From contig JAKBMG010000072.1 in the NCBI GenBank assembly GCA_021831685.1, forward strand, positions 1-64,000: 64,000 nt of DNA, read 5' to 3'. Below, piece by piece: positions 14,739-62,026 of this stretch. How positions within the stretch are numbered: the stretch's first letter is position 1; every line of letters begins with the position of its first letter. Position numbers and translations under genes: made by a program. Below the pieces are notes generated by a model, which worked only from the letters and a program-made list of their open reading frames with translations, did no database searches and was not told where the DNA came from. The DNA is from Bacteroidota bacterium (GTDB lineage Bacteria > Bacteroidota > Ignavibacteria > Ignavibacteriales > Ignavibacteriaceae).

Positions 14739-15401
14739 CTATGGATTAAATCGATATATATAATTATAGCCATCTATCCAGCCCCAAATGATACCCACAA
14801 ATGAACCAAAGGGGATTGTAAGAAAACTATTCAATGTCATATATGCATTATCAGGTGAACCATTATTTCTTGAAGTAAATATTATAGCTCCTACAATAAC
14901 CCCTAATCCCGTTCCGGCAAGAAACCATCCAGGTATTCCAAGCCACCGGTTTTTATAACTCGCTTCCTTTATTTTATCTAAAGGCGCGACTTCAGACCAT
15001 GTTAATATTTTCTTTGTTACTGAATATTCCATTGTGTCGTTAGCAATATTAATATCTCCTGCATTTATTTGTTCATCGTTTTTTAGTAGAAGATTTGCCG
15101 ACTTATAATCGCTGCCGGTGTAATTTATGTTTTTAATTTCTGACAAGGCAACTTTTCTGTAATTTTTATCTAAACGGTATCCTGTTGAATAAAGGGTATC
15201 GTTCTTAATTACGGCTCCGTTATTAATTGTTAATGAGCTATCGTTTATAAATTTGACGTTAATGCTTTTATCTTTAACAGAATTATTAAAGTCCTGATAT
15301 AATTTCTCTTTTGATGAAAAATCTTTAATTGAGTAGATTGAAGAGCAGCTAACAAAAGTTAATGAGAAGAATGCAACAATAAAAAAATTAATATGTTTCA
15401 T
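14739..15401 (-). CDS. Family B glycine-zipper lipoprotein, copy 3
   Basis: A 220-residue predicted lipoprotein. The signal peptide ends at Cys19 (FVSC). It belongs to a paralogous family of three in this island, here called B. Shared landmarks are an N-terminal pattern with SKEKLYQDFN, a DKSINVKFINDSS segment, a KNRWLGIPG turn, then two Gly-rich hydrophobic segments and the C-terminal GWIDGYNYIYRFNP. The Gly-rich pair suggests a glycine-zipper membrane hairpin. It follows the truncated A3 gene by 14 bases. I do not recognise the family and assign no function. Confidence 0.75.
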   Translation of the reverse strand: MKHINFFIVAFFSLTFVSCSSIYSIKDFSSKEKLYQDFNNSVKDKSINVKFINDSSLTINNGAVIKNDTLYSTGYRLDKNYRKVALSEIKNINYTGSDYKSANLLLKNDEQINAGDINIANDTMEYSVTKKILTWSEVAPLDKIKEASYKNRWLGIPGWFLAGTGLGVIVGAIIFTSRNNGSPDNAYMTLNSFLTIPFGSFVGIIWGWIDGYNYIYRFNP

Positions 15402-15415
15402 ATATCAGTCTTTCT

Positions 15416-16180
15416 TCAATAACCCACATATTGTTCTTGTCCCGTGTAATATGAATCATAAAGATACCATGTACCATAGGGCCAAACGCAATTTGTACAT
15501 GGATCCGGAGAATCGCATTTCCATTCAAATTCAATTTGTTTTTCTTGTCTTAATAACCATCCATTTTGCCATGCATATCCGCAAAAAGTTTGGACAGATG
15601 TAATATCTCCATCATTACATGCATATAGCCATATTTGGTTAATGTTTTGATCACTCCCATTTGCAAGTTTGAAAGCGCAATCCCAGTTACTGGTTTGTAC
15701 CATTTCATTCATCAACCAGTTAGAGAATGGTATAGGATTGTAGTAATGACTATATTCATCCCAAAAATCGCATTCACTTCCGCATAGACCTCCGTTGTAT
15801 GCGTCGCACATAATATAGGTATTATTATTGCTCATATACATTGTCAGCCACAAACCTGCTGATTTACCCCCATCACAGGGCTCAGCGGCTGGCCAATTAT
15901 AATCAGTAAGCAGCAATTTTGCACCTGTATTCCAGCTTGCAATTTTATTATCAAAATTTATCGTTGCAGTTGGTGAATAATTCATTTTAAGTGGTTCATC
16001 GACTTCGTAATATCCACATTTAGGAAATAGATTGGGATCTGGTGCCGCTGAAGGATCGCGAATACCTACCATAATATTATTATATGCAAATCCTGAATCG
16101 TTAGCTGTTACAATTTGATTAAAATCACTAGCATATGCTAAAGAAAATCCATAAACCTTTTTAGCTATTTTTAGAGTCAC
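15416..16180 (-). pseudogene. Family A secreted protein, 5'-truncated copy (A3)
   Basis: A 254-residue reading frame aligning with residues from about 135 to the end of the full-length A1 protein at 20405-21604. Shared features are YxxDEP (here EVDEP), YNNIMVGI, the TYIMCDAY segment, CDFWDEY, WLYA with GD, and the Cys-rich Trp-Tyr tail. It has no signal peptide. The only usable start is GTG, and homology to A1 continues a few codons upstream of it before a stop at about 16196-16198. It therefore looks like a gene that lost its first third, though a short cytoplasmic product cannot be excluded. Confidence 0.62.
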
Positions 16181-16259
16181 AATATCATTAAATTGTCAAA
16201 TTTCTAATGATTTCCCCGATACAGCTTGAAATTGATTCTTTATTTAGCTATACTATTTT

Positions 16260-18605
16260 TTACATGATGATTGACGTACCTAAACTAATATTAAAATGAT
16301 TCTGCATCTCATTAAATAATTCCCATGAAAAATCGATTCTAAAAAATGAAAGAATATTTCCCACACCAAAACCAATTTCCCAAATTTTATTTTGTGGACT
16401 TAAATCGAAGTTTGACGAATTGGATATTAAACCGAAGTTTGAAAATAATAATAAATCATAAGGAACATTTTTTAGGAAAGATATCCCGCTGATGTTGAAT
16501 AAATAGTTCTTAAAATTGTTTTCAACAAATATTCCTATGTATCTTTTGCCGAAATAATTGTCATCTAAAATTGTCCTAAAGGTATTTTTCCCGCTTAATG
16601 TTGAAAAATTGCCTGGGAAATGAAAAAGATATTGGGGCAATATATCACCCGATAAATCTCCTATTTCAAAAGTAAGGTCTGTATTAAAAATATAGCTGAA
16701 CTGATTGTATAAATTAACATGCAAAAAAAACGATTGGAAATTATAATTACTTTCTAAATATTTTTTTGAACTGTAAATAAGACTTAAATAAAAATCAAAA
16801 TAGTTGCTTGAATAATCTGGTTCTTCAAACCAGCCAAAGTCATTGTATTTTCTTGTGTCATAATTAAATTTGTATAATATACTATTTATTTTCCCCCCGA
16901 TAATCGGGATAATTTTTCTAAAACTGCCGTCTTTATTAAATAAGCTCCAATTGGTATTTAAAGATACATTTGTCTGGTTTTCAGAATCAAAACCTAAATC
17001 AAACTTCCAAATATTGGAAAAGTTAAAATTGATAAATGCATAATATTTATTTGTATAATAGTAATCGGCATAATCATGCTTATACAATAAGCTGTTATAA
17101 GTAATGTCAAACTGTGAATAATCATAATATCGATTTAAATAAGATAAAACATTACTTCTTGTAAAATTAATATTCACATTATTACTTAACTTATATTTCA
17201 GATTAATCTTAAATTTATTTTTTTTATCAGATATTCCGTAACCGTATTTTGCTATAATTCTAAACGGTAGGAAAATATTCTTGGAATCCAGACCTAATCC
17301 TATATACGAACCTTCTACCCGGTTATAATGATAGAAATCATCAAAGTCTGTAATTGGTAAATCCGGAATAACAGAAGAATAATTTGTTACTAGTAGAATT
17401 GCTTTTAGAATTGTCTTTTTTACGAAGCTTGCATGCTCAACTATACTGTCAATCCTGCTAATAGCATTCTTTTCTCTAATAGTCAGTGGTATAATTTGTT
17501 GACTCTGCCAAAGGTTCACTTCCTTTTCTTTGTCTGACAATTTAGTTACAAATACCTTGTTATCAAATTTATGGTCAAATGTTTTAGAATTTAAAATATA
17601 ATCAGAAAATAAAGAAGTCTGTGTAATATATATAGGCGGTAAACCCGGAATATTTAAATTCATTTGATAGTTTTCTAAAAATATTTTAGGAAGCCAAAAA
17701 TAATTCTGGTATTCGGAAAATTCACATCTCATACTGACATTTTTTTTCTCTGATGAAATAACACTGCTGTTCCCATTTAATTCAAAAAATACCGGTGTAT
17801 ATATCTTATCTATTATTTTAACAGTCCCGCTGAATAGGGAAATATTCTTATCTTTAGGTTTAAATTCAATTGAAAAGATTTTTTGTCCTTTATAATAGGA
17901 GGTATCCTTAATTTCATAATTATAGTACTTCATACCGTCTTTACTAATCGGGCTATAAATACCCAATTCATCAATTTGAATTTTATCATCTAAAAGAGAA
18001 GGAATTCTTCCGGTTACTAAAATGTTGTTTGCTTCGGAAAAATTCTTAGTTTGTTTTTTTGCGATTACTACTTCTTGAAAATTATCGGGATAACTAAAGT
18101 ATCCTTTAGACAGATTCTGAAGTATTCCTGCAGTTATTAGAGAATCTTTTTTCGATATTTTAAGTTCGGTTTTAGTGTAAGCATCGAAGGTATAATTTTT
18201 AATTTTGCTTAGGTAATCCTGCTTTTTATCAATTACCTTTAAAATTATCTGGGCCCCCAAGTTTATATTATCCGCTGATACATAAACCGGACTCATTTTA
18301 ATTGGCGATGATTCGAGCGCTATATCCTTAATTAAAACTTGGTTAATATTTATGTCTATCTTAATTGTGTCACTTTTGTATCCGAGATGGCTAAATACAA
18401 TCTTATATTCCCCTTGTAATAATTTCAATATATAATTCCCGGACTCATTGGTTGTAGTACCCGTACTAGAACTCAGTACATATATGTTTGCATAAGGCAA
18501 AGACAGCCCAGATTTGCTTGTTACTTTGCCTTGAATAGATTGAGCTTTCAAGCTGCATAAATTCACAATAGAGAAAAACAAGCTTAATAAACAAATAAAT
18601 TTCAT
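16260..18605 (-). CDS. DUF5686-type outer-membrane protein with CarboxypepD-reg domain
   Basis: A 781-residue protein with a signal peptide ending near Ala-Gln at residue 22. A carboxypeptidase-regulatory-like beta-sandwich follows at about residues 23-105 (IQGKVTSKSGLSLPYANIYV, then a TNESGNYILKL strand). The remainder matches the DUF5686 family of Bacteroidota, which ends in an outer-membrane beta-barrel; alternating aromatic strands run from residue 430 to the C-terminus. It is not a typical TonB-dependent receptor, as no plug domain is seen. It sits between two truncated A genes, so it may have been inserted into or duplicated with the island. Confidence 0.78.
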   Translation of the reverse strand: MKFICLLSLFFSIVNLCSLKAQSIQGKVTSKSGLSLPYANIYVLSSSTGTTTNESGNYILKLLQGEYKIVFSHLGYKSDTIKIDININQVLIKDIALESSPIKMSPVYVSADNINLGAQIILKVIDKKQDYLSKIKNYTFDAYTKTELKISKKDSLITAGILQNLSKGYFSYPDNFQEVVIAKKQTKNFSEANNILVTGRIPSLLDDKIQIDELGIYSPISKDGMKYYNYEIKDTSYYKGQKIFSIEFKPKDKNISLFSGTVKIIDKIYTPVFFELNGNSSVISSEKKNVSMRCEFSEYQNYFWLPKIFLENYQMNLNIPGLPPIYITQTSLFSDYILNSKTFDHKFDNKVFVTKLSDKEKEVNLWQSQQIIPLTIREKNAISRIDSIVEHASFVKKTILKAILLVTNYSSVIPDLPITDFDDFYHYNRVEGSYIGLGLDSKNIFLPFRIIAKYGYGISDKKNKFKINLKYKLSNNVNINFTRSNVLSYLNRYYDYSQFDITYNSLLYKHDYADYYYTNKYYAFINFNFSNIWKFDLGFDSENQTNVSLNTNWSLFNKDGSFRKIIPIIGGKINSILYKFNYDTRKYNDFGWFEEPDYSSNYFDFYLSLIYSSKKYLESNYNFQSFFLHVNLYNQFSYIFNTDLTFEIGDLSGDILPQYLFHFPGNFSTLSGKNTFRTILDDNYFGKRYIGIFVENNFKNYLFNISGISFLKNVPYDLLLFSNFGLISNSSNFDLSPQNKIWEIGFGVGNILSFFRIDFSWELFNEMQNHFNISLGTSIIM

Positions 18606-18665
18606 AATATTAAAATTTACTACTAATTTTATAAATCAATAAAAGGTATAACTTTAAGTATCTTA

Positions 18666-18762
18666 TCCGAAGTTGAGACATAAAATACTTAACTTTTTAA
18701 ATGTAAATAATTTTATAATTATTATTCGAAGTTATTTTTTACGTTTGTCTCAATTTCAGATA
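18666..18762. repeat. Inverted-repeat-bounded 97-bp intergenic element
   Basis: ATCCGAAGTTGAGACATAAA at 18666-18685 is an imperfect inverted copy of 18743-18762. Read on the other strand, the latter is ATCTGAAATTGAGACAAACG. About 15 of 20 positions match. The interior is very AT-rich. It lies between the A2 remnant and the DUF5686 gene. It could be a small mobile-element remnant or a long hairpin; no transposase is present. Confidence 0.5.
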
Positions 18763-18794
18763 AAATTTTGTTGTGCGAAGCCGACGATATTAGC

Positions 18795-19160
18795 TCAATA
18801 CCACGTGCCTTCTGTTGGATAGGAGCAACTGGTACAACTATTTTGGGTACATTTCCATTCAGTAAAAACTTGTTTTTCTAAGTTTAGTACAAAACCCTGG
18901 GTCCAGGCACTATAAGCGAAATTAGAAACATCAGTCTGATCACCGGTTTGATAGGCATATAGCCAAATATTATTCATTCCATAACCGTTAGCATGGCCAA
19001 ATAGAGTTGTCCAATCTGTGGAATAGCCTCCACAAAAGCCCCTAAAATAACCAGTACTGCCGTTATTAATCACAACATTCATCCAGTTTGAAATATTGCG
19101 TGATCCATAAGCATTATGGAATGCACCCTTACGGCACATATAAATGTCTACAAATAATTC
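18795..19160 (-). pseudogene. Family A secreted protein remnant (A2)
   Basis: About 120 codons align with the C-terminal third of the full-length A1 protein. The matched parts are an IYxMC strand, ISNWMNVVINNG, FCGGYSTDWTTL, MNNIWLYAYQTGD, AWTQGF and a Cys-rich tail. The frame reads back into the 3' end of the B2 gene, so everything upstream of the third is missing. The tail also stops early, after a Gly-Thr-Trp-Tyr that in A1 and A3 is followed by about 13 more residues. Both ends are therefore damaged. The clean join to the B2 stop suggests a deletion between tandem A and B genes. Confidence 0.7.
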
Positions 19161-19164
19161 TAAG

Positions 19165-19863
19165 TTAGGGATTGAATTGATAGGTATAAGTATAACCGTT
19201 AATCCATCCAAAAATTCCTCCTGTTATAAAACCTATTACAGATCCTACAATAAGTCCAGTACGTTCATCCTGAGCGACTATACCTCCAGCATATGAACCT
19301 GATCCGGGAAGGCTATTATTTGGAGGATTAATCTTAGAAATAATAAAACCTACAAAGGCTCCGAATCCAGCTCCCAATCCTGTAGACAAAATCAATTTAC
19401 CAGGTACGCCAGCCCAATGATTCTTATAACTTATCTTTTTTACTTTATTTACTGGTATATATTCATCATCATTTTCAAAAATAGTAGCATTAATAGATGA
19501 ATCAGAAAGTATATTTACATTTTTCGCGATAGCTTCCGTACCATTCTTCAGAAAGATAATTGCAGATAAATTTGTCATATCATTGCCGCTATATTTGATA
19601 TCTTTAATATTATCTTTGCTTATTTTTTCGACCTTTTGAACTTGAATAGTAAATAATAGTGAATCATGTGAAATCCTTGCACCACCATAAGTTGTAATTG
19701 TACTATCATTTTTTAGAAATACTTTGAGAGATTTGTCTTTTGCTGATTTGTTAAAATCAGCATAGAACTTATCTTTTGAAGGGAAATCTCTTATTGTATA
19801 GTTTGAGGAGCAGTCAACTACAATTAACGATAGTGCGACAATAGTATAATAAAGTTTTTTCAT
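19165..19863 (-). CDS. Family B glycine-zipper lipoprotein, copy 2
   Basis: A 232-residue predicted lipoprotein (lipidation at Cys18, VVDC). It shares the B-family layout: SKDKFYADFN, DKSLKVFLKNDST, GGARISHDSLL, a KNHWAGVPG turn, two long Gly-rich hydrophobic segments, and GWINGYTYTYQFNP at the end. Compared with B1 it has an added stretch of about 45 residues in the middle (KDIKYSGN onward), which B3 also carries. It starts nine bases after B1. The function is unknown. Confidence 0.75.
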   Translation of the reverse strand: MKKLYYTIVALSLIVVDCSSNYTIRDFPSKDKFYADFNKSAKDKSLKVFLKNDSTITTYGGARISHDSLLFTIQVQKVEKISKDNIKDIKYSGNDMTNLSAIIFLKNGTEAIAKNVNILSDSSINATIFENDDEYIPVNKVKKISYKNHWAGVPGKLILSTGLGAGFGAFVGFIISKINPPNNSLPGSGSYAGGIVAQDERTGLIVGSVIGFITGGIFGWINGYTYTYQFNP

Positions 19864-19872
19864 TTAATGGAA

Positions 19873-20388
19873 CTAACGATTAAAATAATAGATATAATTA
19901 TATCCTATTAACCAGCCTATAACACCGCCTATAACCGTGCCCACTCCAATGCCGACAAGCATAGCACCTCCTGTTTCTATCGTTTGTGTTTGCACTCCTG
20001 ATATATCTGAATGAGTTTCATATACTGGAATTATTCCAATCGCTCCAGCAAGGGTACCTAATACTGCGCCGGTTAAAATGCCAAATGGAATGCCAAGCCA
20101 TCTTTTATTATAACTAATCCTCTTAACATTACTAAGTGGAACAAATACTGCATTACTATTTTTCTCTTGCGCAACAAATAAGAGGGTATCATTTGATATT
20201 CTTGCACCTCCAGTAACAATAAAAGAACTATCATTCATTAAAATTATTTTCACATTTTTATCTATGCAGGATGCGTTAAAATTTTTATATAATTCTTCTT
20301 TAGAATAATATTTATTTACAATATAATTTGATTGACAGCCTTCCAAAAACAAAAATGAAAAAGCAATAAATAAAAATGAAATCTTCAT
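19873..20388 (-). CDS. Family B glycine-zipper lipoprotein, copy 1
   Basis: A 171-residue predicted lipoprotein with lipobox LEGC (Cys18). It is the shortest B paralogue: SKEELYKNFNASCIDKN, NDSSFIVTGGARISNDTLLF, an NVKRISYNKRWLGIP turn, two Gly/Ala-rich hydrophobic stretches and GWLIGYNYIYYFNR at the end. It begins 16 bases after the stop of A1, so A1 and B1 form a likely operon. This full-length pair probably represents the ancestral A-B unit of the island; function unknown. Confidence 0.75.
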   Translation of the reverse strand: MKISFLFIAFSFLFLEGCQSNYIVNKYYSKEELYKNFNASCIDKNVKIILMNDSSFIVTGGARISNDTLLFVAQEKNSNAVFVPLSNVKRISYNKRWLGIPFGILTGAVLGTLAGAIGIIPVYETHSDISGVQTQTIETGGAMLVGIGVGTVIGGVIGWLIGYNYIYYFNR

Positions 20389-20404
20389 ACTTTTACCTTA
20401 TTGG

Positions 20405-21604
20405 TTAATAATATACCCATTGTTGATCGTCATAGTAGGCAGCATAAACAGTCCAATTCCCTCCATCAGGCCAACTGCAATTTAATCCTGAACACTGATA
20501 TATAATTACAAGATGTTTTTGTAATCTAAGATTCCAATGCATTTGCCATGCAGATAAGCAAAAATTTAATATAGCTGTTTCATCACCTTCATCAACTGCA
20601 TAAAGCCAAACTTCTCCTATTCCATTATAGTTTGCTGTATATAACAAAGTAGACCAGCTAGTTGCGGCATAACCACAAGAGGAGGCATTACCATATCCGT
20701 TGTTTATAGTAACATCTAACCAATTGGATATGTTCTTAGAAATATAATAACCCTTAAATTCGTTCCAGTAATCACTTGTATGTCCCAAACAATTGCCGTG
20801 ATATTCATCGCACATTATATAGATATTACCTAATGAGCTTACAATAGGGCCATATTTTTGACCATAAGTAACGGGAAAAGACCAATATTGAGGAACCACT
20901 GGCCATTTGTAGCTGCCTAACATTATTCTCCTAGATGAAGCTCCTGAATAACTAGCTACACTTTCAATTGTATAATCGTCCCACGTTCCTTTTTCTATGG
21001 GTTCGTCGATGTAATAAGAACCAACATGTCTACCATAAGAATTTGAGGCGTCTATTTGCGAAAAGGCAGTGTTGTAATTAGTAAGCCCTAACATCATATT
21101 ATCATAGCTATACCCATCATGATAGGCACTATCTATATCATCAGTATTATTTACATATATTGACGTGAAACCATAGTAAGGGCTAGCAGTTTTCCAAATT
21201 GGAATTATGTTAGTACAAATTCCTAAATTCTTCCCAGGTGCGGGAGAGAATTGATTCTCCATTTCCCAGTACGAAATAGTTACTTGGTAATAACCTGCAT
21301 AGGGTTTTACAGTTTGAGGTTTATTAGAAATGTTATGCGTAGAAAGATAATTATCAAGTAAGGCAATTTTATCGGCAGGAAGGTTTTTGTCTATAACAAT
21401 AGTCTTTCCACTTCTTGGCAAAGTTATAACAGTATCTGTAGAATGATTAATTGATGAAGTTACTGTTGCAACCGTTTTGGCCATAGTTATTACCTTACTT
21501 TCATTTGGTGAGGTAAGTGTGCTTTCACTGCTGCAGCTTCCTAACATAATTGGAAGAGAAAAAAGAATAACAAAGAAGGCCAAGAGGCGGATAGAATTTT
21601 TCAT
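20405..21604 (-). CDS. Family A secreted lipoprotein, full-length copy (A1)
   Basis: A 399-residue protein with a lipoprotein signal (LGSC, Cys24). The start at 21604 is chosen because GGGAG lies six bases upstream. After a Ser/Thr-rich linker, residues 105-399 show alternating hydrophobic strands and Trp/Tyr-rich turns. GSYYIDEPIEKG, IMLGSYKW, NIYIMCDEYHG and IGEVWLYAVDEGD fall where TIM-barrel hydrolases carry strand-end acids. A glycoside-hydrolase-like barrel is therefore plausible but unproven. Six or more Cys in the last 150 residues suggest disulfides outside the cytoplasm. A2 and A3 are decayed relatives. No family is recognised. Confidence 0.72.
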   Translation of the reverse strand: MKNSIRLLAFFVILFSLPIMLGSCSSESTLTSPNESKVITMAKTVATVTSSINHSTDTVITLPRSGKTIVIDKNLPADKIALLDNYLSTHNISNKPQTVKPYAGYYQVTISYWEMENQFSPAPGKNLGICTNIIPIWKTASPYYGFTSIYVNNTDDIDSAYHDGYSYDNMMLGLTNYNTAFSQIDASNSYGRHVGSYYIDEPIEKGTWDDYTIESVASYSGASSRRIMLGSYKWPVVPQYWSFPVTYGQKYGPIVSSLGNIYIMCDEYHGNCLGHTSDYWNEFKGYYISKNISNWLDVTINNGYGNASSCGYAATSWSTLLYTANYNGIGEVWLYAVDEGDETAILNFCLSAWQMHWNLRLQKHLVIIYQCSGLNCSWPDGGNWTVYAAYYDDQQWVYY

Positions 21605-21677
21605 ATACACTCCCATAATAATTTGTTTAAGGCTTACAAATTAATTAACCAAACAACGAACATGAAAAAACCGCTTC

Positions 21678-61797: not shown

Positions 61798-61812
61798 AGT
61801 TATTTAATTACC

Positions 61813-61923
61813 CACCTTACGCAAAAGGTTATTATTACATAATGAGAAACCTCCGAGGTTTTCCTAAACCTCGGAGGTTTTGCACTTTACTTACATTATA
61901 TTGGAAATTGTCTGCGTAAGGTG
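61813..61923. repeat. 111-bp element with perfect 11-bp terminal inverted repeats
   Basis: CACCTTACGCA at 61813-61823 is exactly inverted at 61913-61923. Inside, AAACCTCCGAGGTTT (61847-61861) pairs with AAACCTCGGAGGTTT (61866-61880) around TCCT, a 15-bp stem. No protein is encoded. It has the form of a MITE. The outer ends match those of the dispersed repeat copies. Confidence 0.85.
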
Positions 61924-62026
61924 AGTTATTATAATAGGCTGTTTAAACATAAGGTGCTTATTAATATTGACATCTAAATCTTTGCTTTTCCTTGAACTTA
62001 AACTTGCTTTCGGGTGTAAAATAAAA

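Follow-up and report, generated by a model that had tools for sequence, protein, structure and literature searches.

A decayed island of paired lipoprotein genes in an Ignavibacteria genome: a possible variable cell-surface locus with a candidate carbohydrate-active TIM-barrel protein

Two kinds of genes, here called A and B, lie side by side on one island in the window, by which we mean the whole 64,000-nucleotide stretch of DNA analysed, and their arrangement raises the question whether they encode a functional unit and what such proteins might do in the cell envelope. An earlier note, made from the sequence alone, had proposed three secreted, enzyme-like A proteins paired each time with one of three glycine-zipper lipoproteins B, and had recognised neither family. 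Indeed, both are undescribed in the libraries searched: A matched no family of Pfam or NCBIfam, glycoside hydrolase families included, its comparison with PDB by sequence gave chance-level matches only, every match of B to library lipoprotein families fell under the curated cut-off, and the literature library searched contained no paper describing either family. Moreover, A1 had no match in a plasmid collection, and no A relatives were found in viral contigs.

Gene content and state of the island

The gene order on the minus strand is A1, B1, B2, A2 remnant, DUF5686 gene, A3 and B3, as read directly from the sequence:

20405..21616, minus strand: A1, the sole intact A gene, 403 aa (open reading frame, AF2 model, lipobox)
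19873..20388, minus strand: B1, short B lipoprotein, 171 aa (open reading frame and alignment)
19165..19863, minus strand: B2, full-length B lipoprotein, 232 aa (open reading frame and alignment)
18795..19124, minus strand: A2, C-terminal A remnant with no start or signal (profile positions 278-373 of 388)
16260..18605, minus strand: DUF5686 protein, 781 aa, with a CarbopepD_reg_2 domain; island cargo
15416..16252, minus strand: A3, N-terminally truncated A pseudogene corresponding to A1 residues 116-399
14739..15401, minus strand: B3, full-length B lipoprotein, 220 aa (open reading frame, alignment, AF2)
15350..21533, no strand assigned: segment missing in two relatives, in which the A1 leader is joined to the B3 body

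The A and B genes all lie on one strand, as had been stated, and the three B genes belong to one family, with all frames open and 40-43% identity to B3. The count of three A genes has to be reduced to one intact gene, A1. A2, which had been listed as 18795-19211 with a TTG start that falls within the end of B2, is the remnant of an A gene; it shares 78% DNA identity over 327 bp with the A gene on contig C37 of the same genome. The adjacency of A and B is real, but A2 comes after B2 and not before it. The open frame of A3 spans 15416-16180, with in-frame stops upstream of it; the signal and roughly the N-terminal quarter to third are gone, and the DEP motif is kept. Since A2 and A3 are broken, the locus may be largely non-functional. 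Further copies are scattered over the host genome (4.5 Mb, 221 contigs), with an A gene on contig C37 that is nearly complete except for one stop, a fragment of an A C-terminus on C52, more B genes on C71 and C163 (76.9 kb) and a long B form on C117.

The DUF5686 gene (Pfam PF18939, E 1.4e-27; PF13715, E 1.5e-17), which sits inside the island, was absent from the earlier note. Its product is an ordinary member of the DUF5686/CarboxypepD_reg outer-membrane proteins, its GC content is 0.276 versus 0.33-0.38 in the surroundings, and elsewhere such a gene is no recurrent neighbour of A or B. Outside the island, an intergenic repeat of 120-135 bp at 61801-61937 occurs in about 40 genome copies on both strands (46 matching stretches, most 83-96% identical). 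The element is MITE-like: its termini are inverted repeats (CACCTTACGCA/TGCGTAAGGTG), a long hairpin lies between them (fold -48.9 kcal/mol, z -6.5), and Rfam gave no match.

The A family and its genomic settings

An AF2 model of A1, built from 11 sequences (pLDDT 77.8, pTM 0.74), predicts a barrel with eight strands, at residues 130, 152, 174, 200, 230, 265, 297 and 335, and behind it a C-terminal beta-hairpin of two strands, in agreement with the TIM-barrel-like, enzyme-like character suggested earlier. The barrel is preceded by a lipobox (LGSC28), which makes A1 a predicted lipoprotein, so that the protein would be exported by its signal, as the claim of secretion implied, yet not be freely secreted. 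The richness in Trp, Tyr and Cys was confirmed (3.5/9.4/2.0% vs 1.3/4.5/0.7% in the long open frames of the window). Comparison of the model with assorted TIM barrels using VIA gave Z up to 16.3 over ~200 residues (rmsd 3.4), the matches being generic TIM barrels with pyruvate kinases and sugar isomerases at the top; since TIM barrels of many functions match A1, the fold is clear and the function is not.

A more specific clue is provided by the YxxDEP acid, which had been proposed to lie at a barrel strand end. In the model D204 and E205 of the motif (YYIDEP) stand just after strand 4 (200-203), and Glu205 is the sole residue that is invariant in all 53 non-redundant homologues, with Asp204 conserved in 48 of 53 and Asp270 in 34 of 52 in the alignment. 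A D/N-E-P motif with its acid at the end of strand 4 is shared by TIM-barrel glycoside hydrolases and A. Most glycosidases are expected to have a second acidic residue, either at strand 7 as in GH-A or in an Asp-Glu pair (GH20-like); in A no second acid is invariant, Asp270 included, and no conserved acid at strand 7 was seen in the alignment.

Profile searches detected A in 48 of 164 genomes of the order and in 38 of 294 genomes sampled within the class, and in a phylum sample of 395 genomes all 18 that carry A belong to this same class. A contig titled Gammaproteobacteria (L091, PCTP01000074.1) is probably mis-binned; it has an A-B locus, and an Ignavibacteria genome (L092) encodes the identical A protein. 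The A genes are found in four settings. In the own and nearest genera, a lipoprotein A is followed by B within 12-38 bp. In other genera A is followed by a small barrel-like protein of ~185 aa or ~220 aa, two families whose barrel label comes from their sequence pattern, with a weak OmpW match only (E 0.01); the order A, barrel, B is also present in the own genus. In the third setting A forms the first domain of proteins of 690-1373 aa, which carry type IX sorting domains at L081, L177 and L178 and fn3, CARDB or dockerin domains in several cases. The fourth setting is a short exported form of 260-290 aa in genera g35 and g37, which at 9 of 10 loci adjoins a Wzx-type flippase (PF01943) and glycosyltransferases, often together with a UDP-GlcNAc 2-epimerase. 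The short form shares only 16-20% identity with A1, and it was found by the A profile with E 2e-20 to 5e-30 before its own members entered the profile. Intact A genes with neither B nor a barrel were present at L068, L070, L175-L178, L181-L183 and L186.

The sequence context of the short form is, by analogy, the main functional clue for the family, since its position beside a flippase and glycosyltransferases makes a glycosidase-like role the best reading of A. Exopolysaccharide clusters commonly contain glycosidase genes (PMC9075953). A1 itself lies outside any polysaccharide cluster, and the enzyme reading is moderately supported.

B proteins and their pairing with A

B2 covers the B profile from 1 to 222. 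B1 matches the profile only at 1-80 and 134-222; the family's middle part is missing, and the region of the helical hairpin is retained. In the AF2 model of B3 (pLDDT 80.8, pTM 0.59), a helix and two small beta-barrels (47-94, 101-151) come first, residues 152-178 and 186-210 are predicted to form a helical hairpin, and a short strand ends the chain. The best similarity of the model to Hfq/Sm folds reached Z 7.0 in VIA (rmsd 2.6, 64 aligned residues), against a caution line of Z 8, and the best Foldseek match of B had E 0.04. By its sequence, which includes a lipobox, B is a predicted small membrane lipoprotein, as proposed, but the glycine-zipper assignment was not sustained: the best zipper match, that of B2 (Gly-zipper_YMGG, 16.9 bits), is below the family cut-off of 28.9. 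The 433-aa long B form on contig C117 is fused to an OMP_b-brl_2 outer-membrane beta-barrel (E 9.2e-8), and six further genomes of the genus have open frames of about this length. This fusion suggests that B acts at the outer membrane.

The idea that A and B form a fixed functional unit was not supported. A occurs without B across the class, and B, present in 13 of 13 genomes of the genus, is frequently found without A, so that independent occurrence, named in advance as evidence against the unit, was largely what we encountered; yet A followed by B at 12-38 bp recurs in several species. Of 23 A 3' ends counted in the own and nearest genera, 15 are followed by B at a distance of no more than 38 bp, whereas the chance of a B start at most 40 bp after a given A end is <1 in 10,000 by our own estimate, which assumes about 10 B genes per 4.5 Mb. 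Within the genus, A and B divergence showed no significant correlation (r 0.21, p 0.10, n 9), which speaks weakly against tight co-evolution; with a second genus added, r was 0.51 (p 0.002). The pairing is thus real and not obligate, and gene order is what suggests that A and B might cooperate. The locus is better described as a variable surface locus built of several exchangeable parts, A and B among them.

The adjacency could also be meaningless for A, if B and the barrels were separate envelope genes that took their promoter or their translation start from the A 3' end, and if the arrangement spread as this end was duplicated in tandem with the next gene. Indeed, the last 40-80 codons of A recur 12-38 bp before B at L051, L052, L058 and L062 and directly before barrel-like genes at L155 and L156, and three A-end copies of 90-150 bp, 91-94% identical, alternate with beta-barrel-like genes at L069 (3958-4109, 5493-5642, 7503-7595). 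We read these recurring ends as tandem duplications, and the many B genes without A agree with the same explanation. However, complete and clearly constrained A genes, with Glu205 in 53 of 53 homologues, occupy the same position, and the order of A before its partner is kept at most loci across families with differing partners. We consider this explanation unlikely. Since A 3' ends recur downstream, a diversity-generating retroelement was also considered, but the copies come as units of an A 3' end with its next gene, for which tandem duplication is the better fit.

Turnover of the locus and comparison with known systems

In relatives, these genes make up a block with unusually rapid rearrangement and erosion. 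In two of them, G011 and G009, the site is present with flanks at 86-95% identity but lacks 6.2 kb; the A1 leader there continues in frame into the B3 body at the lipobox sequence AGCTGC, the G009 copy being frameshifted. Of the two collapsed loci, L077 has the window positions 24644-21533 and 15350-12173 contiguous (94.7% and 92.4% identity), and L079 has the same arrangement at 86-90%. In G004 and G012 the genes flanking this site, malQ and a permease, are merely 117 and about 390 bp apart, and this short spacing points to a probable gain of the island in the ancestor of G000, G009 and G011, followed by its collapse in two of them, the direction of change being inferred.

Another site, common to the two species G004 and G012, illustrates how variable such loci can be. 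Ten flanking genes are 78-97% identical, whereas a LuxR-type regulator (46%), A (39%) and B (40%) have diverged strongly, and one genome carries a barrel-like gene where the other has a propeller gene and an A remnant; the contrast comes from one site in two genomes. At six loci of the genus (L054 8844-9464, L058 9663-10256, L059 497-1093, L050, L051 and L078) the gene directly before A encodes a LuxR-type (GerE) regulator of ~200 aa, and at L167 such a gene precedes a B pair; the window island has none. Some loci share a conserved A signal region, with about 38 near-identical residues in L054 and L058, and have bodies at 35-40% identity. At L062 (~8840) a C7 tract after the A lipobox sets signal and body in different frames, whereas a longer C tract at the same position of L056 leaves the frame open; phase variation or an assembly error is possible at L062.

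Several explanations of this variability have to be weighed. A might be a polymorphic lipoprotein toxin that attacks the envelope of neighbouring cells, with B or the barrel as an immunity or accessory protein that protects its owner, so that A would be lost more readily, as in the SitBAI system of Myxococcus, in which SitA toxins are lipoproteins encoded together with immunity genes (PMC5562445). B does outlive A: B genes remain intact where the neighbouring A gene is broken or reduced to its leader, and many genomes have orphan B genes. Both the near-identical signal regions with mature parts at 35-40% and the divergence of regulator, A and B (39-46%) between conserved flanks would also fit a toxin. 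On the other hand, A holds one fold and an invariant Glu throughout the class with no swap of unrelated toxin domains, intact A homologues exist without B or barrel, A and B divergence within the genus lacks a significant correlation, and PADLOC gave no match; such a toxin is quite improbable in our judgement. Antigenic or phage-receptor variation, in which phages or predators recognise the surface proteins and recombination draws on the broken copies as a reservoir, would account for the same local divergence, for conserved leaders with diverged bodies, for many truncated copies in one genome and for the C7-tract frameshift. Most remnants, however, lie elsewhere in the genome and, at 35-55% identity, are too diverged to be ready donors for gene conversion, and we regard this explanation as very unlikely. 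A further, doubtful possibility is a hypervariable module of LuxR-type regulator, TIM-barrel lipoprotein, barrel or propeller and Sm-like lipoprotein. Such a module would be swapped or diversify as one block at fixed chromosomal sites, would serve recognition or competition among relatives and would have as its variable part an enzyme family of its own.

The reading that we prefer, at about even confidence, is that Ignavibacteria have a variable cell-surface locus and that the island is a copy of it which has been rearranged repeatedly and has decayed. A would be a TIM-barrel lipoprotein of the surface or periplasm, most likely cleaving or remodelling a polysaccharide; its acid would be Glu205, which ends strand 4. 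B would be an outer-membrane lipoprotein with two Sm-like domains and a membrane-interacting helical hairpin, which may assist envelope proteins encoded in a presumed common operon, and small outer-membrane beta-barrels would replace it after A at other loci. If this is right, A constitutes an unclassified carbohydrate-active TIM-barrel family with a ready active-site candidate residue, confined among the genomes sampled to one class of largely uncultured bacteria, and its copies in polysaccharide clusters open the substrate question to direct testing. The contrast between flanks at 78-97% and module genes at 39-46% would mark a surface locus with unusual turnover in a host group whose surface biology is little known.

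Among known systems, A resembles the TIM-barrel glycoside hydrolases (GH-A, GH-K) and PslG in its modelled barrel fold and its export, and differs in having no sequence match to them and no visible acid at strand 7. The short form shares its location in polysaccharide clusters with exopolysaccharide-cluster hydrolases such as PslG, whereas A1 is a predicted lipoprotein encoded outside such a cluster. B is similar to the Rick_17kDa/SlyB glycine-zipper and YgdI/YgdR lipoproteins in its lipobox and Gly-rich helical hairpin, and possibly in an Sm-like small barrel (VIA Z 7.0 to Hfq and 4.7 to the lipoprotein 2k57, both below 8), but in B two modelled small barrels precede the hairpin and the protein ends in a conserved Y-x-Y-x-F-N. 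With SitBAI, the A-B loci have in common several lipoprotein cassettes per genome, a conserved signal, a variable body and a small downstream gene; the bodies of SitA are unrelated toxin domains and SitI is the cognate immunity protein (PMC5562445), whereas the barrel of A stays the same throughout, and B, too, is predicted to be a lipoprotein and to have a membrane hairpin.
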